NCBI GenBank assembly: GCA_945862235.1
Contig: CAMAYU010000031.1
Location: forward strand, 1 to 40,727
Direction: 5' to 3'
DNA length: 40,727 nt
DNA from: Schlesneria paludicola DSM 18645
GTDB lineage: Bacteria; Planctomycetota; Planctomycetia; Planctomycetales; Planctomycetaceae
A model generated the notes under the pieces. The model was not told where the DNA came from. It saw nothing but the letters and a program-made list of their open reading frames with translations, and ran no database searches. The position numbers and the translations under genes were made by a program. The number at the start of each line of letters is the position of its first letter. Position 1 is the first letter of the stretch. Shown in pieces: positions 25,126-32,847 of the stretch.

Positions 25126-25169
25126 AATGTCATGAGTTGTCGGGTTCGTGGAATGAGGCATCCTGCTCC

Positions 25170-26267
25170 ATGTGGTTTTTCATTCTCGGTTGTCTGCTTC
25201 CTGCCTTCTGGGTGTCGTTCCTGACGACGGGCCTGATGAGGCTGATCGCGCCGCGAGTCGGCTTGATTGATCGGCCGGCTGCTCGCAAAGTCCATCTCGT
25301 GCCGACGCCGCTCGGTGGCGGGATCGGCATCTGGGCGGGAGTCGTGTTGCCGCTGCTCATCGCACAGATTTTGGTGTTGATCTGGCGCGTGAATCCTCCG
25401 AGTTGGTTGCCGCTCGAATTGCGCGAGCATCTGGCGGGAGCCGCCTTTCGGGCGAAGGAATTGTGGGGCGTGTTGGGAGCGGCGACATTGCTCGCGTTGA
25501 TGGGCTTGATCGACGATCTGCGACCGCTGCCGTGGAAACCGCGACTGGCCATTCAACTGGGAGTCTCGGCGGCGGTCGTGTTGTCCGGCGTGCGCGCGAC
25601 GATCTTTCTGAGCAACCCGTGGGTCGGAATCTTGTTGTCGATCTGTTGGTTCGTGGTTCTCGTGAACTCGTTCAATTTCCTCGACAACATGGACGGTTTA
25701 TCGGGCGGCATCGCGCTCATCGTGAGCATGATCTTCGCCGTGATGATGCTCACCAAACCGGGCGACCCGCGTTGGCTGGTGGGCGGTTTTTTCTTGATCG
25801 TGGCGGGATCGCTGATCGGGTTCCTGTGTCACAACTGGTCCCCAGCCCGCATCTTCATGGGCGATTCAGGGAGTTATTTTCTCGGCTTCAGCATCGCCAG
25901 CATGACTGTTCTTGGAACGTTCTATTCACCGAGCGATCACAACCAACACGTGATCCTCGCGCCGTTCTGCGTACTGGCGGTGCCGCTGTACGACATCTGC
26001 ACCGTCGTGCTGATTCGACTGCGCGAAGGCCGCAGCCCGTTTCAGCCCGACAAGAAACACTTCTCCCACAGATTGGTCGCACTCGGCCTAACGAAGGTGC
26101 AGGCGGTGCTAACCGTTCATCTGGCGACGCTCATCACCGGGCTGCTCGGCCTGACGTTGTATTCGGTATCGAGTTGGAACGCGGCGGCGGTCGTGATCGC
26201 GTGTGTCGGCTGTGTGCTGTTGTTGATCGCGATCTTGGAAGCCGCGCCGCGCAACGGAGCGGCGTAG
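25170..26267 (+). CDS. WecA/MraY-type sugar-1-phosphate transferase
   Basis: 365 residues from ATG 25170; an in-frame TTG 33 bp upstream is possible. About ten membrane helices. Family motifs: RKVHLVPTPLGGGIGIWAG, GLIDDLRPLPWKPRLAIQL (the Asp-Asp pair), NSFNFLDNMDGLSGGIAL (catalytic Asp segment), IFMGDSGSYFLGF, and the cytosolic His-rich loop DKKHFSHRLVALGL. It would transfer a sugar-1-phosphate (GlcNAc in WecA) from UDP-sugar to undecaprenyl phosphate, starting surface polysaccharide synthesis. The window also carries an ABC exporter and a ligase-like protein, both compatible. The sugar cannot be told, and MraY itself is less likely because no peptidoglycan genes are near. Confidence 0.9.
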   Translation: MWFFILGCLLPAFWVSFLTTGLMRLIAPRVGLIDRPAARKVHLVPTPLGGGIGIWAGVVLPLLIAQILVLIWRVNPPSWLPLELREHLAGAAFRAKELWGVLGAATLLALMGLIDDLRPLPWKPRLAIQLGVSAAVVLSGVRATIFLSNPWVGILLSICWFVVLVNSFNFLDNMDGLSGGIALIVSMIFAVMMLTKPGDPRWLVGGFFLIVAGSLIGFLCHNWSPARIFMGDSGSYFLGFSIASMTVLGTFYSPSDHNQHVILAPFCVLAVPLYDICTVVLIRLREGRSPFQPDKKHFSHRLVALGLTKVQAVLTVHLATLITGLLGLTLYSVSSWNAAAVVIACVGCVLLLIAILEAAPRNGAA

Positions 26268-26352
26268 CCCGTCACACCCACCCGCAGCGTGAGCGAGGAC
26301 TCCATCGCACGCGACGCAATCGCCAACGCCGAGCCAAAACCAAGCGGAAGGA

Positions 26353-26597
26353 ATTCAACCACGGATTTCACGGAAGGCACGGATCAGAGATAAGGACCAG
26401 CGAATCACTACTGTCGGGATTATGGTGAGCCGGGTGCAGTAAGGCCCCGGACTCCTCGATGAAGAGTCCGGGGCCTTACTGCACCCGGCTCACCCAAGTC
26501 AAACAAACTCTGACAGATGTTGATTTGTCCGTCCTAAGCAAAACATTTCTATCCTTGCCGCTTTCATCCGCGGCCTGCGTGAAATCCGTGGTTGAAT
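26353..26597. repeat. Outer 19-bp inverted repeat
   Basis: ATTCAACCACGGATTTCAC (26353-26371) and its exact complement at 26579-26597, spacing about 207 bp, enclosing the hairpin at 26424. Confidence 0.85.
26424..26494. repeat. Perfect 31-bp hairpin
   Basis: Arms 26424-26454 and 26464-26494 (GGTGAGCCGGGTGCAGTAAG onward) are exact complements with a 9-base loop. No T-run follows. Such length and perfection argue for recent formation or active maintenance. Confidence 0.9.
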
Positions 26598-26653
26598 CTC
26601 ATCCTCTTCACTCTGCATCAGCATATACGCGGGATAAGAAGTCGTCGTGAACG

Positions 26654-29122
26654 ATGGGTACGAATGAGGACAGCATGGCTCGGTCGGTGACTGCGACTGT
26701 TGATCGAAGTGTGAGCCCGACTTCATTGCGAGGTCGTTTTGCCGCGACATGCGAGCCGTTCCTGAGCGGTCTCGTCGCGATGACGTTCTTCGCGCGGTTC
26801 TATCTCCCCACAGAAGACACCGCGAACGGCGCGACGCTGTGGATCATCGCGATCTGGTTTGTGATCGGGTTGTTCGCGCTGCTCATGGCGTGGCGCGGCC
26901 GAGGTGCGGCGCGGAGATGCGATGGATGTGACGCGGCGGTCTTGCTGCTGATCGGTGGGCAAGTCGCCTCAGCGGTAATGATCGTGGCGACGACGGGCGA
27001 CAAGCGAGCGGCGGTCAACATCGCATGGGAGTGGATCGGTGCCGGGATTGTTTGGTTCGTGCTGCGGTCACGCGTGGGAGGCACGGCATTTCGCGAAACG
27101 TTTGTGCGCGCGTCCGTCATCACCGGATGCATTCTCGCCGGGCTGGGCCTGTGGCAGCATTACGTCTCGCAACCGGCACTCGTCCGCGAGTATGGCCCGT
27201 TATTCGATCGGCTGCGGGAGGCAACGGGAGGCGAAGCGGAGGTCATTCTGCGGCAGTTGGCCAAGTCTGGCGTTCCGACGGAAGGTCCGGCGCTGACGCT
27301 GTTCGAGAAGCGGATACGCGACAGCCGCGAACCGATGGGACTGTTCGGTTTGACTAATACGTTCGGCGGGTGCCTGGCCGTGTGGCTCGTGCTGACTCTG
27401 GCTTCGTTTCGCCTGAGCAACGCCCAGCGCGGCCGCGAGCGGCTGCTTGTACCTCGCGCGGTCGTTGATCCGGCCTCTGAGCGGGGTGGCGTAAGCCCCC
27501 CGGTTGTTTGCAAACGGGCTGACGCCCAAGAACTGGGGGGCTTACGCCACGCCCCTCTGAAATCCCTCACTCTTGGCCGCGCGAAGTACGAAGCCGCCCT
27601 CTTGGTCGTCACGCTGGCATTGATCGCGTGGTGTCTGCTGCTGACGAAAAGTCGCACGGCGCTCGTGGGGACGGCCTGCGGTATCGCCGTCTTGGTAGGA
27701 GGGCAACTGCTGTCGTCACTGCGACGTGGCGACGCGATCACGACTTGGATTCGTCGTGCGGTTGCGGTCCTCGGGATTGGAACCGTGCTGGCGGGGATCG
27801 CGGTCGGTCTGCTGATTCAAACCGGGGGACTCGACATTGAGGTGTTGTCGGAGTCCTTCAAGTCGGCCTCGTACCGGTTGCAGTACTGGCAGGCGACTAC
27901 GCGGCTGGTGGTGGCTCATCCGTGGCTTGGCGTCGGACCCGGAAACTTTCGTCAGCACTACTTGAAATACAAATTGCCCGAGGCCAGCGAGGAGATCGCC
28001 GATCCCCACAACCTCTTCTTCGATGTCGCAGCGACCGGTGGACTGGTGTCACTCGCGGGGTTGGTGATGTTGCTCGTGCTGACGGTCTGTGGACGATTGG
28101 TGCCGGGGCGCGAGCAACCCAACGCCGGTGGCCTCGCGAGTGATTCCGTCTCATCTTGGCCGTACTGGTGTGCCGGTGTTGCACCGTTGTTGGTGTTCTT
28201 CAGTTTGATGGTGTTGAACGGCGAGTGGGACGACAGACTCCTCGTCCTGCCGTGTGTTTGGTTTGGTGTGGTGGGCGTACGGAGTTGGCTGGCAAAGGGC
28301 GAAACCTCCACACCCGACGATGCCGCACGCTGGTCCTTTGCCGCAGCCGTGGTCTTGGTCGTTCACTTGCTCGGCGCGGGCGGCATCTCGATGCCCGCCG
28401 TCTCGCAGTTGCTGCTGTGTTTGATCGCGTTCAGTCTCCCGCCGCTGGCGGTGGAAACAGTCCCGTCCAAAGTCGCACTGCGAACCAACAGGCCGATGTG
28501 TGCGGTCACGTTGATTGGCTGGGCTGTGATGTTGGCAGCGTTTGTCGCGACCGCGCTGGTTCCAGTCACGCGAGGGCAGTCGTGGTTGGCGACTGGCAAC
28601 CGGATGGCCCTTGCTCGCGAAGGCCGATCCGGTGCCGAGGTGGCCTATCGCGCGGCGTGTCTGGCCGACGACTGGTCCTCCACGCCGTGGCATCGTCGAG
28701 CCGAACTGGCTTACGAGCAGGCGGCTCGCGATCGTTTCCAGTCCAACGAATTGTTCGACACCGCCGTAAAGCTGCTGCTCGAAGCGATGGCCCGCGACCC
28801 ACACAATTTTCACGGTCCGAGGACTCTCGGAAACTGGTGGCTGACCCGATGGCAGGTGACTCAAAACGAGGCTGATGCTCGACAAGCGTTTGAGTGGCTG
28901 CGGCGTGCGCTGGACTCGTACCCGACGAACGCCTCGCTGCTTGCCGAATTCAGTCAGGCGGCAGAGGCGGCGGTGCAAATCCACGAAACGGTCACAGCCG
29001 CTCAGAGTGCTTTGAAACAGAACGAACTGAATCGACGCCTCGGACATGTAGACCGTTACTTGGCCGACGACGTTGTCGCCCGATTGCGTCGATTATTAAA
29101 GGAGAGGACTCGTTCACCGTGA
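26654..29122 (+). CDS. O-antigen ligase/polymerase-like membrane protein
   Basis: 822 residues from ATG 26654 (a second ATG at 26675). About twelve hydrophobic helices in residues 30-640. The segment YWQATTRLVVAHPWLGVGPG, followed by NFRQHYLKYKLPEASEEIADPHNLFFDVAATGG (key part DPHNLFFD), is the signature periplasmic loop of the Wzy/WaaL (O-antigen ligase) family, which joins or polymerises undecaprenyl-linked glycans. The C-terminal 180 residues are soluble and TPR-like (YEQAARDRFQSNELFDTAV, WLRRALDSYPTNASLLAEF). A palindromic repeat (27477-27560) is inserted in frame at about residues 275-302. Start is 386 bp after the WecA-like gene, likely an independent transcript. Confidence 0.85.
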   Translation: MGTNEDSMARSVTATVDRSVSPTSLRGRFAATCEPFLSGLVAMTFFARFYLPTEDTANGATLWIIAIWFVIGLFALLMAWRGRGAARRCDGCDAAVLLLIGGQVASAVMIVATTGDKRAAVNIAWEWIGAGIVWFVLRSRVGGTAFRETFVRASVITGCILAGLGLWQHYVSQPALVREYGPLFDRLREATGGEAEVILRQLAKSGVPTEGPALTLFEKRIRDSREPMGLFGLTNTFGGCLAVWLVLTLASFRLSNAQRGRERLLVPRAVVDPASERGGVSPPVVCKRADAQELGGLRHAPLKSLTLGRAKYEAALLVVTLALIAWCLLLTKSRTALVGTACGIAVLVGGQLLSSLRRGDAITTWIRRAVAVLGIGTVLAGIAVGLLIQTGGLDIEVLSESFKSASYRLQYWQATTRLVVAHPWLGVGPGNFRQHYLKYKLPEASEEIADPHNLFFDVAATGGLVSLAGLVMLLVLTVCGRLVPGREQPNAGGLASDSVSSWPYWCAGVAPLLVFFSLMVLNGEWDDRLLVLPCVWFGVVGVRSWLAKGETSTPDDAARWSFAAAVVLVVHLLGAGGISMPAVSQLLLCLIAFSLPPLAVETVPSKVALRTNRPMCAVTLIGWAVMLAAFVATALVPVTRGQSWLATGNRMALAREGRSGAEVAYRAACLADDWSSTPWHRRAELAYEQAARDRFQSNELFDTAVKLLLEAMARDPHNFHGPRTLGNWWLTRWQVTQNEADARQAFEWLRRALDSYPTNASLLAEFSQAAEAAVQIHETVTAAQSALKQNELNRRLGHVDRYLADDVVARLRRLLKERTRSP
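27477..27560. repeat. Palindromic repeat inside the ligase-like gene
   Basis: Left arm 27477-27506 (TCTGAGCGGGGTGGCGTAAG...) pairs with right arm 27531-27560 (...CTTACGCCACGCCCCTCTGA) with a few mismatches. The left arm resembles the outer arm of the intergenic element at 24896. The reading frame stays open across it, adding residues about 275-302 (SERGGVSPPVVCKRA). Confidence 0.85.
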
Positions 29123-29147
29123 ACGTGTGATGACGGATTGTGTGCGG

Positions 29148-29153
29148 TATAAG
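29148..29153 (+). promoter_or_regulatory. Candidate -10 box for the DUF1573 gene
   Basis: TATAAG followed by TCCCGCCG; preceded by GTGTGCGG, resembling GTGTGGC before TATAAT at 5970. It is 178 bp before the ATG, so a palindrome (29181-29240) would lie in the 5' leader. Confidence 0.35.
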
Positions 29154-29180
29154 TCCCGCCGCGAATGCCCTCGCACCAAT

Positions 29181-29240
29181 ACCAACCCGCCGCGTGAGCA
29201 AGGAATGTTGGCGAACTCCTTGCTCACGCGGCGGGTTGGT
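29181..29240. repeat. Perfect 24-bp palindrome, GCGTGAGC family
   Basis: Arms 29181-29204 (ACCAACCCGCCGCGTGAGCA...) and 29217-29240 are exact complements around 12 bp. Related to the copies at 22688 and 23041. Confidence 0.9.
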
Positions 29241-29325
29241 GTGAACGGCATCGACACCAGCCGCTCTAACCCTCCCCGTAAACCCCCGCTGACAATTCCA
29301 CCGCCGACGTACCGAGGACGTGCCG

Positions 29326-30480
29326 ATGAAGCCTGTTGCCGTGATATTGACGATTGCCTTCACCTTTGTGGCCCTCAGTGTCACCGTGTGGTTGGGACGC
29401 TATCAGGGCGTGATCGATCTGCCCCAGCTTTCCGGTGGTCCTCCCACGGAGGCTGTTCCAGGCAGCTTGGAGATCCCGGCCAATGGCCCGTTCGGCAAGG
29501 CCGTCCCCGTGGAGATATCGCACGATTTCGGTGTTCTTACGCTCGGTTCCAAAGGGTCACACGTCTTCGTCATTAAGAACGAAGGGCAGGGGCCGTTGCG
29601 AGTGAAAACAGGCAAGACCTCCTGCATCCAATGCACGGTGGGAGGCGTCTCACGCGAGGATGACATTCTGCCCGGTGAATCGGTCGATGTGACGATCAAA
29701 TGGGAGATCAAGTCCCCCAACGAGAAGTTCCGCCAATGGGCCGAAGTCCACACGACCGATCCGGACAACAAGCGGATCGAACTCTCCATCGAAGGACGGG
29801 TGGATCGACCACTCCGGCTGACTCCCGAGGACGTGTGGGTTGTCGGCGACCTCCTGCCCGACGTACCGACCGTCGTGCGCGGGACGCTGTACTCGTTAAT
29901 CCTCGATGAAGTCACCATCGACAAATTTGAGTGTGTCAACCCGCATGTGTCCGTGACGTGGGAACCGGCCACGCCGGAAACGCTCGCCGAATTGAAAGCC
30001 AAGTCCGGCGTGCAGATCACCGTCAGTGTGGCGGCGAACAGCCCGCTCGGTCCGCTGCGAGAATCGATCACCCTCGTGTCTCCGCATAATGGCGGGACCA
30101 GTATCCAGCTCGGATTGACGGGACAGCGGTCGGGACCGATCGAATTCAAAGGCCCCCGTTGGAACCCCGAAACCAATTTCTTGACACTCGGTGAGTTCCC
30201 CGCGAACAAAGGGATCAAGTCCAAACTCTATTTGTACGTCCGCGACTTGGAAGGCGAACTGGTCGTCGAGTCGATCGAGCAAAAGTACAACGCCGTCAAA
30301 TTCACCTTCCCGCCAACGGGCAAAGTCATCGGCAAATCGAAGTTGTACGAAGTCGAAGTCGAGATTCCGCCCGGTTCGTCGGCCAAACGGCGCGGCGAGG
30401 ATGCCGAACAAATTCGGCTGAAACTCAACCACCCCAATGCGAAAGAGTACCGGTTCTACGTCAGCTATCACTCGCTCTGA
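29326..30480 (+). CDS. DUF1573 domain protein, membrane-anchored
   Basis: 384 residues from ATG 29326 (GAGG ten bases upstream; a GTG six bases earlier is possible). An N-terminal hydrophobic helix (about 5-24) is a signal or anchor. Residues about 65-165 are a DUF1573 immunoglobulin-like domain: ISHDFGVLTLGSKGSHVFVI, KNEGQGPLRVKTGKTSCIQC, DILPGESVDVTIKWE. Two further beta domains of similar size follow to the end. DUF1573 proteins are extracytoplasmic and common in Bacteroidetes and Planctomycetes; their role is unknown. The next gene on the strand, 270 bp on, encodes a tetrahaem lipoprotein, and the pairing of such genes is suggestive of joint function. The cysteine pair in SCIQC may be a metal or disulfide site. 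Confidence 0.85.
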   Translation: MKPVAVILTIAFTFVALSVTVWLGRYQGVIDLPQLSGGPPTEAVPGSLEIPANGPFGKAVPVEISHDFGVLTLGSKGSHVFVIKNEGQGPLRVKTGKTSCIQCTVGGVSREDDILPGESVDVTIKWEIKSPNEKFRQWAEVHTTDPDNKRIELSIEGRVDRPLRLTPEDVWVVGDLLPDVPTVVRGTLYSLILDEVTIDKFECVNPHVSVTWEPATPETLAELKAKSGVQITVSVAANSPLGPLRESITLVSPHNGGTSIQLGLTGQRSGPIEFKGPRWNPETNFLTLGEFPANKGIKSKLYLYVRDLEGELVVESIEQKYNAVKFTFPPTGKVIGKSKLYEVEVEIPPGSSAKRRGEDAEQIRLKLNHPNAKEYRFYVSYHSL

Positions 30481-30572: not shown

Positions 30573-30633
30573 GACGGACGCCCTCGTCCGTCCGTTTTCA
30601 ACGGAAGTTCGCTCGGACGAGGGCGTCCAAGCT
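30573..30633. repeat. Inverted repeat before the cytochrome gene
   Basis: GGACGCCCTCGTCCG (30576-30590) and CGGACGAGGGCGTCC (30614-30628) are perfect complements. Because the frame is open through it, it can mislead start calling for the next gene. Confidence 0.85.
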
Positions 30634-30750: not shown

Positions 30751-32415
30751 ATGTTTGCGACGCAGCAAGGCTCGATGTCAGCAGTACGACGATTGCCGGT
30801 CTCATTGATGTCTCTTTACGCGATGACAACTCTGGTGCTCGTGGCCGGATGCCCCGCAACGCCTCCATTACCGAAGCCCTCCGCACCGGCTGGTGGTGCT
30901 GTGAATGGTGGATCGACCAAGCCCACCACAACGGCGAACGAAAAGGCTCCCGCCAAGGGAGCCGACGCACATGAAGCTCCACCCGAACCGTTGCTGGCCG
31001 ACTGGAAGTCACCCGCGGCCGTGTTGCTGCTGACGGGCTTGCAGCACGGTTATCTCGAACCGTGCGGCTGCAGCATTCACCAATTGGGTGGCATGGCGCG
31101 GCGAGCCGACTTGGTGCGGATGCTCACCGAAGAGCGGAAGTGGGCCGTGTCGGGACTCGATGTCGGCGGGGCACCCAAACGCAACCGACGACAAGATCAG
31201 ATCAAGTATCTCGCGCTGTTCGATGCCTTCAAAAAGCTGAACTACGGTGCAGTCGCCGTTGGACGGGAAGAGCTTCTGTTGGGAGCCGACTTCCTCCTTC
31301 AGCAGATGGTGTCTGACCCCGAGGAAGCCAAGAAAACGGTGGCGCTGCTCGGCGCAAACGTCGCGTTGTACGACCCGCCGCTGGAAGGCTGGCCGCTCGC
31401 GTCGCGCATCGTTCAAGTCGGTGAGATCAAGGTCGGTGTGACGGCGATCGTGGGTGTGAGCCTGCGCAAGGATGTCGCTCCCGACGGTGCGATGAACAAC
31501 ATCACAATTCGCGATCCCGACGAAGTTCTGCCCGCCGCCATCGCTGCCTTGAAAGCTGAGCAGCCTCAATTCTTGGTGCTGCTCTCGCACGGCAGTACAG
31601 AAGAGGCCTCGGCACTGGCGGCCAAGTACCCCGAGTTTCAGATCGTGCTCACGGCGGGCGGTCCCGATGAGGCGGACAAGAAGCCCGTCGTTGTGGGCAA
31701 GACGTGGGTGATTCAGGCCGAACCCAAAGGGAAGCGGGTCGGCGTGCTCGGCTATTTCCCGGACAACGCCGAGCAACCGTTCCGCTACGACCTCGTGGCA
31801 CTCGACGACCAGCGGTTCAAGGATCATCCGACGATGCGCGAGTTGATGAAGACCTACCAGCAGCAACTGCTCGACGAAGCCATCTCCACATCCGAAGAGC
31901 TGCTCATCAAATATCCGTCCGGACACACATTTGTCGGCGCGGATAAGTGCGGTGAATGTCACACGAAGGCGTTCGCCCATTGGAAGGAGACGCCGCACGC
32001 GAAGGCGTTCGAGCCGCTGATCTCCGGCCGCAAGGGGGATGTCGATCCGATCTCGCGCATCTACGACCCGGAATGTCTGGCGTGCCACGTCACGGGTTGG
32101 GACGCGAAGCAAATGCTTCGCTACGACAGCGGCTACATCAGTCAAGAACGGACGCCGCATCTGCTGAACCAACAGTGCGAGAACTGTCACGGCCCCGGCA
32201 GTCACCACGTCAGCCTTCAAGAACGCTTTGCCAACGATGCCGCCAGTGTCACCACCGCTGAACTGGAAGCGGGAAGAACGTCTGTTCGCCAAACACTGGA
32301 AACGGCGAAAAAGGGGGCGTGCGCGAGCTGCCACGATTCCGATAACGACCCCCGTTTCACTCCCGATGCCTTCGACAAATACTGGGCAAAGATTGCGCAC
32401 CCGTGGCGCGACTGA
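30751..32415 (+). CDS. Tetrahaem c-type lipoprotein with degenerate phosphoesterase domain
   Basis: 554 residues from ATG 30751, with AGGAAGGA just upstream; an earlier in-frame ATG at 30559 lies in a repeat. A lipobox LVAGC places lipid-modified Cys34 at the membrane. Residues about 90-380 align with the 5'-nucleotidase/metallophosphoesterase pattern (LLTGLQHGYLEPCGC, GGMARRADLV, VAVGREELLLG, LLSHGSTEE), but most metal ligands are changed. The C-terminal part has four CxxCH haem sites at Cys400, 442, 476 and 524 (CGECH, CLACH, CENCH, CASCH), as in cytochrome c554-type proteins. It is probably an extracytoplasmic electron carrier attached to a binding domain. DUF1573 gene upstream; DUF971 gene 102 bp downstream. 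Confidence 0.9.
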   Translation: MFATQQGSMSAVRRLPVSLMSLYAMTTLVLVAGCPATPPLPKPSAPAGGAVNGGSTKPTTTANEKAPAKGADAHEAPPEPLLADWKSPAAVLLLTGLQHGYLEPCGCSIHQLGGMARRADLVRMLTEERKWAVSGLDVGGAPKRNRRQDQIKYLALFDAFKKLNYGAVAVGREELLLGADFLLQQMVSDPEEAKKTVALLGANVALYDPPLEGWPLASRIVQVGEIKVGVTAIVGVSLRKDVAPDGAMNNITIRDPDEVLPAAIAALKAEQPQFLVLLSHGSTEEASALAAKYPEFQIVLTAGGPDEADKKPVVVGKTWVIQAEPKGKRVGVLGYFPDNAEQPFRYDLVALDDQRFKDHPTMRELMKTYQQQLLDEAISTSEELLIKYPSGHTFVGADKCGECHTKAFAHWKETPHAKAFEPLISGRKGDVDPISRIYDPECLACHVTGWDAKQMLRYDSGYISQERTPHLLNQQCENCHGPGSHHVSLQERFANDAASVTTAELEAGRTSVRQTLETAKKGACASCHDSDNDPRFTPDAFDKYWAKIAHPWRD

Positions 32416-32517: not shown

Positions 32518-32847
32518 ATGCAGCTCACCCCGCAAGCTCTCCGCGCACTGAAGGACACCTCAGTCTTCGAGATCACCTGGACCGACGGCAAGACGTTCCA
32601 GCTCCCATTCAAACTGGTCCGATCGGAGTGTCCCTGCGCCGAGTGTGTTCATGAGATCACTGGCGAACGCATTCTCCAGCCCGAGTGGATTCCCGACGAC
32701 ATCCGACCGACCGAACTCAGTTACGCTGGCAACTACGCGCTGCGGATCGTCTGGTCCGATCGTCACGCTTCGGGCATCTTCACTTGGGAACGACTGCACG
32801 GACTGTGTTCTCACTACCAAGCGGTCTTGGTCTCTCAACCCATTTGA
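32518..32847 (+). CDS. DUF971 domain protein
   Basis: 109 residues. The sequence SVFEITWTDGKTFQLPFKLV, then CPCAECVHEITGERIL (three cysteines) and later YALRIVWSDRHASGIFTWERL, then LCSHY is the DUF971 pattern, also found at the N-terminus of gamma-butyrobetaine hydroxylase and in proteins next to the ApbC/Mrp iron-sulfur carrier. The conserved Cys and His residues probably bind zinc or an iron-sulfur cluster. The stop overlaps by one base the ATG of the NYN-domain gene (TGATG), so the two genes are co-translated. Confidence 0.88.
   Translation: MQLTPQALRALKDTSVFEITWTDGKTFQLPFKLVRSECPCAECVHEITGERILQPEWIPDDIRPTELSYAGNYALRIVWSDRHASGIFTWERLHGLCSHYQAVLVSQPI

Follow-up and report, generated by a model that had tools for sequence, protein, structure and literature searches.

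The locus analysed here raises the question of what a bacterial lipoprotein may do that carries four haem-binding motifs behind a phosphoesterase fold that has lost its metal ligands, and how it relates to the DUF1573 protein encoded directly upstream. The window, i.e., the whole stretch of DNA that was analysed, comprises 40,727 nt of contig CAMAYU010000031.1 of Schlesneria paludicola DSM 18645. In an earlier note, which was made from the sequence alone, a binding or scaffold domain tied to extracytoplasmic electron transfer had been proposed. This interpretation was partly supported: electron transfer is likely, while a purely passive scaffold does not agree with the Cys-Gly-Cys motif of the protein and its selenocysteine (Sec) counterparts in relatives. 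Neither of the two outcomes that the note had named as refuting occurred.

The gene at positions 30751–32415 (forward strand, as all genes and protein features of the window below) encodes a protein of 554 amino acids, P0001, which was characterized by its open reading frame, by profile searches and by its predicted fold. It starts with a lipobox-like VAGC, and by the lipobox rule C34 (30850–30852) is presumably the lipidation site. The Pfam domain Cytochrome_C554 (PF13435, residues 399–481, positions 31945–32193) was found with 59 bits at a gathering score of 20.8. Four CxxCH motifs are present, namely CGECH (residues 400–404, 31948–31962), CLACH (442–446, 32074–32088), CENCH (476–480, 32176–32190) and CASCH (524–528, 32320–32334), so that the tetrahaem lipoprotein described in the earlier note was confirmed. 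A chance origin of these motifs was ruled out, as none of 20,000 residue shuffles of P0001 contained four of them and the shuffle maximum was one. All 11 cysteines of the protein could be assigned, i.e., C34, C105 and C107 of the CGC motif, and the eight haem cysteines. The third-position GC content is 0.75 for the core, compared with 0.71 to 0.78 for the four adjoining genes. A conservation alignment of 46 rows was built from eight close relatives and 38 family rows, from which L092, L101 and the fragment L111_5655 had been dropped. The eight haem cysteines, the four proximal histidines and, in addition, His 416, 486 and 550 were invariant in all 46 rows. The haem core (residues 393–486) aligned with cytochrome c554 (1bvb, E 4.7e-11), which also has four CxxCH motifs. 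Cytochrome c554 contains three bis-His haems and one five-coordinate haem, and the three additional invariant histidines alongside four haems in the P0001 family may reflect the same pattern. In contrast to cytochrome c554, which is a free cytochrome, the version in P0001 is a domain within a lipoprotein.

The phosphoesterase (5'-nucleotidase) fold encompasses residues 86–375 (31006–31875), as deduced from a predicted structure and from the alignment. The structure was modelled with AlphaFold2 using nine sequences. The model was mostly good for residues 80–375, and the pLDDT was below 50 for the CGC loop (residues 100–113) and for most of the haem domain; because this applies to both regions, no usable CGC-to-haem distance could be derived. 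The predicted core (about residues 86–375) superimposed on CD73 with a Z score of 26.8 (275 residues, 2.9 Å), on E. coli UshA (1ush) and on SoxB (2wdf) with 25.1 each, and on SoxB in the disulfide-linked SoxYZ complex (4uwq) with 24.8. In 5'-nucleotidases and other metallophosphoesterases the dimetal site is formed by the motifs DxH, DxGD, GNHE, H and GGHTH. At the respective positions P0001 has LQHG, DVGG, GREE, LSHG and GGPDE, which verified the claim that most ligands have been lost from a recognizable 5'-nucleotidase pattern. The loss extends to the family: the bridging Asp of DxGD is replaced by Gly in 32 of the 38 family rows, GxEE is the commonest form of GNHE, the Asn-His pair of which is gone, and GGHTH is likewise lost. 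The histidines of LQHG and LSHG had been regarded as the only remainder of the site. They are indeed present in P0001, but they do not represent a conserved remnant of the metal site, as position 99 is His in 25/38 and position 280 in 23/38 family rows. An intact metal site in P0001 was ruled out by the family alignment, and the superposition that had been suggested as a check yielded the expected fold. The conserved D137 and N203 and a mostly acidic position 174 lie within the former active-site sequence motifs. Some haem-bearing relatives (L137, L138) retain DxGD and a His at the GGH position. Taken together, P0001 shares the fold with E. coli UshA and CD73 (Z 25 to 27) but differs from them in lacking the dimetal site and in having a haem domain added behind the fold. 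SoxB (TIGR04486) is similar in fold and gives a weak profile match (E 9e-11, 40.8 bits at a cut-off of 550), whereas P0001 has lost the metal ligands and gained the CGC motif and a C-terminal haem domain. Neither in the genome of P0001 nor in 14 control genomes was a protein found that exceeded the TIGR04486 cut-off.

The motif C105-G106-C107 is encoded at positions 31063–31071. The nearest NCBIfam model of P0001 was UshA_like_PCGU (NF041198, "UshA-like (seleno)protein"), a profile of 519 positions with a phosphoesterase part (about 1–300) and a haem part (about 350–519). P0001 was matched by the stretches 31–265 and 350–516, the latter corresponding to positions 31780–32358 of the window. An orphan architecture was thus rejected, since the profile already covers both parts. 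The score of 217.8 bits is below the curated cut-off of 275, which was reached in none of the 61 family genomes and in 20 of the 294 genomes of the phylum sample. In the alignment the CGC of P0001 coincides with the motif of the profile, its second Cys being at the position of a TGA codon (Sec) in relatives. Judged from its sequence, P0001 is a Cys-form homologue of NF041198 below the cut-off and is not filed as a member. It has in common with NF041198 proteins the succession of phosphoesterase fold and c554-type haems and the place of the CGC or CGU; it differs in being the Cys form and in its lower score. In a tree it was found together with DUF1573-linked proteins, separate from 24 of 26 rows from tandem loci. 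CGC occurs in 45 of the 46 rows; the remaining protein is frame-split, and its other fragment reads EPCGCS. Outside the family of the window the middle residue varies (CAC, CDC). In published selenoprotein tables the motif of the UshA-like protein is given as CxU and that of DUF1573/OS_HP2 as UxC or UGC (PMC2398784, PMC13188914, PMC9312934). Because the published motif is CxU, the CGC of P0001 represents the known Sec position, and the proposal that it is a new ligand site had to be given up, as TGA occupies this position in 20/20 flagged relatives examined. According to the text of the Global Ocean Sampling (GOS) study, three major families lack a conserved Cys-based redox motif, the UshA-like protein being one of them, and the table of the same paper gives CxU (PMC2398784). 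For a CGC disulfide a potential of −167 mV, near that of PDI, has been quoted (PMC4316792, citing Woycechowsky and Raines 2003). The location of the CGC at a Sec position speaks for redox chemistry and against a domain that passively binds or serves as a scaffold.

The upstream gene (29320–30480; alternative ATG start at 29326) encodes P0002, which has a predicted N-terminal transmembrane helix followed by beta-sandwich domains. The first of them is DUF1573 (PF07610, 48.9 bits at a gathering score of 26.1), in agreement with the claim that a DUF1573 gene precedes the haem-fused domain. It contains the Cys pair C102-x-x-C105 (29623–29634), the first Cys of which aligns with Sec in other genomes. 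The partner alignment had 47 rows that represent 44 distinct loci, as it holds the duplicates L092 and L101 and the window twice. The Cys pair was found in 44/44 distinct loci, as CxC in 42 and as CxxC in the window and in L102. The model OS_HP2 (OS_HP2_seleno, NF041425) gave 53.4 bits at a cut-off of 100. Like OS_HP2/DUF1573 proteins (NF041425, PF07610; UxC/UGC), P0002 has a DUF1573 domain with a Cys pair at the Sec position; unlike them, it has CxxC instead of CxC, further beta-sandwich domains and a predicted transmembrane helix. SoxYZ was not among the listed fold matches of P0002, where a missing row proves nothing, and the SoxZ profile had no match in the same genome, with the control being likewise silent. 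In the literature searched, as far as the sources were accessible, DUF1573 appeared in selenoprotein tables (PMC13188914, PMC9312934) and in one expression table.

The survey of gene neighbourhoods comprised Planctomycetota, i.e., close relatives, a family sample and a phylum sample. Of the 61 genomes of the family sample, the loci of 40 were taken with flanks of up to about 6 kb, which were shorter at contig ends. After removal of the duplicates L092 (of L012) and L101 (of L010), 47 loci remained (the window, eight named relatives and 38 family loci). In 40 of them a DUF1573 gene precedes the UshA-like gene in the same orientation, 38 times within 400 nt, and the pairing was thus verified in related genomes. 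The other seven genomes contain an orthologue of P0002 elsewhere (295–419 bits, compared with 37–54 bits for three other DUF1573 genes tested), and therefore both genes are present in 47/47 cases. Three family genomes had no clear UshA-like gene, and each of them is less than 90% complete; the partner match was strong in G014 (201 bits), weak in G036 (67.5) and almost absent in G016 (23.7). Outside the family, DUF1573 adjoins the UshA-like gene in 4 of 16 phylum loci that had not been selected for TGA, upstream in L144, L145 and L148 and downstream in L143; adjacency was judged with a profile of the DUF1573 of the family, supplemented by Pfam in some of the genomes. Next to the 20 TGA-flagged UshA-like genes no DUF1573 gene was found, and in none of the 18 respective genomes, which are drafts, did the Sec UshA-like and DUF1573 genes share a contig.

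The locus has further frequent neighbours. A putative WecA/MraY-like gene (25137–26267) is an upstream neighbour in 30/47 loci, a Wzy_C O-antigen-ligase-like gene (26654–29122) in 32/47, and a GBBH-like_N protein gene (32518–32847) is a downstream neighbour in 24/47. The order WecA-like, Wzy_C ligase, DUF1573 (25137–30480 in the window) is shared by many genera of the family. DUF1573 is present in all 32 loci with Wzy, and where it is displaced it still adjoins Wzy in 2/7 cases. Because DUF1573 travels with the WecA-like and Wzy genes, its first partner could be surface glycan assembly, which is a live alternative. Some observations on the locus are added here. The gap between the DUF1573 and UshA-like genes contains an inverted pair of a 14-mer (30576–30628), which has 21 copies in the genome, compared with none for the reversed control; as an inverted pair 38–39 nt apart it occurs at four places of the genome, resembling a REP doublet. 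In L111 (G020:C299) the UshA-like gene is broken by an in-frame TAA, i.e., it is a pseudogene or the result of an assembly error. A plasmid search yielded one match, with 28.6% over half of the query.

The two proteins are also linked by gene fusion. Eight long frames (L173–L180) were chosen as possible fusions, and five of them, from four genomes, turned out to unite DUF1573, the UshA-like part and Cytochrome_C554 in a single frame (L173 and L174 of G080, L175 of G139, L176 of G123, L177 of G221). All five have kept a CxC in both parts, which in the UshA-like part is CGC in three proteins, CTC in L174 and CDC in L177. The OS_HP2 cut-off was passed by three fusions (106.6 to 109.8 bits) and that of NF041198 by none (186 to 263 of 275 bits). 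The SoxB profile matched L173 with an E value of 1e-26. In a quick tree of 90 rows, which has several long branches, the fusions grouped together (support 97), and the clade of the window grouped with the remaining DUF1573-adjacent proteins (support 95); L111, L117, the haem-free L141, L142, L146 and L147, seven close copies and the duplicates were omitted from it. Since gene order and gene fusion tie them together, P0001 and its DUF1573 partner look like one extracellular redox machine.

Selenocysteine forms were found in both families. The NF041198 search gave a match in 232 of the 294 phylum genomes, and many among the matches listed carry one TGA. Twenty UshA-like genes from 18 genomes were picked because they were TGA-flagged among these listed matches (L113–L132; a flagged gene of G141 was left out), and in 20/20 the TGA takes the place of the second Cys of CGC. 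Most of these loci (16/20) have a Cys copy behind the Sec gene. All 18 genomes contain DUF1573, which is TGA-bearing in 11 and not in seven. The complete set of TGA-flagged DUF1573 domains (L153–L172, 20 domains from 11 genomes) has the TGA at the first Cys of CxC without exception (UGC in 19, USC in one), and in nine of these loci a second DUF1573 domain with a plain CGC is present. Sec is therefore the last residue in CGU of the UshA-like protein and the first in UGC of DUF1573. A SelB match above the cut-off was obtained for 17/18 genomes with Sec UshA-like genes. Apart from G012, six genomes of the window's family were sampled, among them that of the window itself, and none had such a match. 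SECIS-like hairpins were not significant compared with mononucleotide shuffles, neither after 16 UshA-like TGA codons (mean z −0.69, 5/16 below −1) nor after 15 DUF1573 TGA codons (mean z 0.01, 0/15 below −1). Because of these weak hairpins, the evidence for Sec consists of the position of the TGA, the continuation of the homologous frame before and behind it, and SelB. A motif scan revealed thioredoxin-like UGPC frames beside the DUF1573 genes in 8/20 Sec loci; such frames near DUF1573 were seen in L154, L155, L157, L159, L161, L166, L167, L168 and L188.

In addition, four genomes of the window's family have a second UshA-like tetrahaem gene with PCGC (L149–L152), which form a clade of their own. 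One of them, the diverged L152 (G012:C314), has kept CGC, and in its fourth haem motif (CVTUH) a TGA replaces the second Cys. SelB exceeded the cut-off in its genome, and CVTUH may possibly be Sec in a CxxCH motif or a sequencing error. In L131 (4602–5896) the tandem of Sec and Cys UshA-like genes is immediately preceded by a putative sigma-factor-like and a putative anti-sigma-like gene.

A periplasmic electron relay from thiols or selenols to haem, composed of the DUF1573 CxC, the UshA-like CGC and the c554-type haems, is the reading that we prefer, with a probability of roughly 0.53. The anatomy of the proteins, the invariance of the motifs, the pairing, the fusions and, for genomes with SelB, the TGA codons at the two Cys sites are observed. 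From these we infer the location, the disulfide chemistry, the exchange between the two motifs and the electron transfer. A domain of the 5'-nucleotidase/SoxB type would have traded its dimetal hydrolase chemistry for a redox-active Cys-Gly-Cys, or CGU in Sec users. P0001 would be extracytoplasmic, and its partner would be the membrane-anchored DUF1573 protein encoded upstream. The CxC or CxxC of DUF1573 would take a thiol or disulfide from a substrate, its Cys pair would then exchange with C105/C107 of P0001, and the haems would conduct two electrons, in single steps, towards the respiratory chain or away from it. Thiol/disulfide (or selenol) exchange with the four haems as electron wire would be the simplest reading of these sequences, and the favoured direction is thiol oxidation with haem as the electron sink. 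It is tempting to extend this to both families, such that UshA-like (CGU) and DUF1573/OS_HP2 (UGC) proteins would be the halves of one extracytoplasmic thiol/selenol-to-haem relay, in which the dead phosphoesterase would offer, in the manner of SoxB, a platform where a Cys-bearing Ig-like carrier docks, and which would be condensed to a DUF1573-UshA-tetrahaem polypeptide in some Planctomycetota; this wider proposal is tentative, and we give it somewhat less than even odds.

Among the other explanations, a Sox-like sulfur carrier system deserves attention. The DUF1573 Cys would bear sulfur species like SoxY, and the SoxB-like domain and the haems would act on them by release or oxidation of persulfide or sulfite. 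The closest folds include SoxB, also in the form disulfide-linked to SoxYZ, the SoxB profile matches P0001 as well as the fusion L173, and the combination of a phosphoesterase fold, an Ig-like Cys protein and haem c parallels the layout of SoxB, SoxYZ and SoxAX. However, the metals of SoxB are absent and its curated cut-off is missed by far (40.8 of 550 bits), and DUF1573 has a CxC and lacks the C-terminal GGCGG arm that is the motif of SoxY; SoxYZ was also missing from the listed P0002 fold matches, with the reservation given above. We thus consider such a system unlikely. Slightly less likely still is a metal site, in which CGC and the CxC of DUF1573 would hold a soft metal such as Cu or Fe and the haems would change its redox state, a view that is close to the new ligand site of the earlier note. 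In its favour, CxC motifs can bind metal, Cys or Sec can serve as metal ligands, and the conserved D137 and N203 and the mostly acidic position 174 are found in the old active-site motifs, but the TGA in place of one CxC cysteine in both families and the thioredoxin-like UGPC genes beside 8/20 DUF1573 loci fit thiol redox chemistry better.

The family-wide loss of the metal ligands would also be expected if the phosphoesterase part were an inert scaffold or binding module, as the earlier note had it, but the invariant CGC and its Sec form in other lineages would then be left unexplained, which makes this improbable. From the fold and from L137 and L138, which have DxGD and the His at the GGH position, it could be envisaged that some metal-dependent activity of a phosphoesterase or nucleotidase has remained or been modified; the replacement of the bridging Asp by Gly in 32/38 rows and the loss of the Asn-His pair of GNHE and of GGHTH speak against this very improbable reading. 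Against the thiol/selenol-to-haem relay itself we counted that the genes share no contig in the 18 Sec genomes, the lack of a TGA-bearing DUF1573 in seven of these, the TGA in the haem motif of L152, the association of DUF1573 with Wzy, the statement of 2008 on the absence of a redox motif, the SECIS-like result and the low pLDDT values.

The CGC as a Sec position was already known, and new here is the partnership of the UshA-like and DUF1573 families. Both have been on the list of selenoproteins since 2008 (PMC2398784), and in the accessible parts of the published compilations they are separate rows without a stated role or link (PMC2398784, PMC13188914, PMC9312934). No connection between the UshA-like and DUF1573 selenoproteins was found in the literature searched, to the extent that its sources were accessible and with most subscription papers outside its scope, and a search of mostly non-subscription papers for a metallophosphoesterase with a multihaem part in planctomycetes gave nothing. 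By linking the two families through their gene order, their fusions and the correspondence of their Sec sites, each of them gains a partner and a testable chemistry, and a case is offered of a hydrolase fold that would have turned into a redox protein. If this is true, planctomycetes would possess a haem-dependent periplasmic pathway for thiols.
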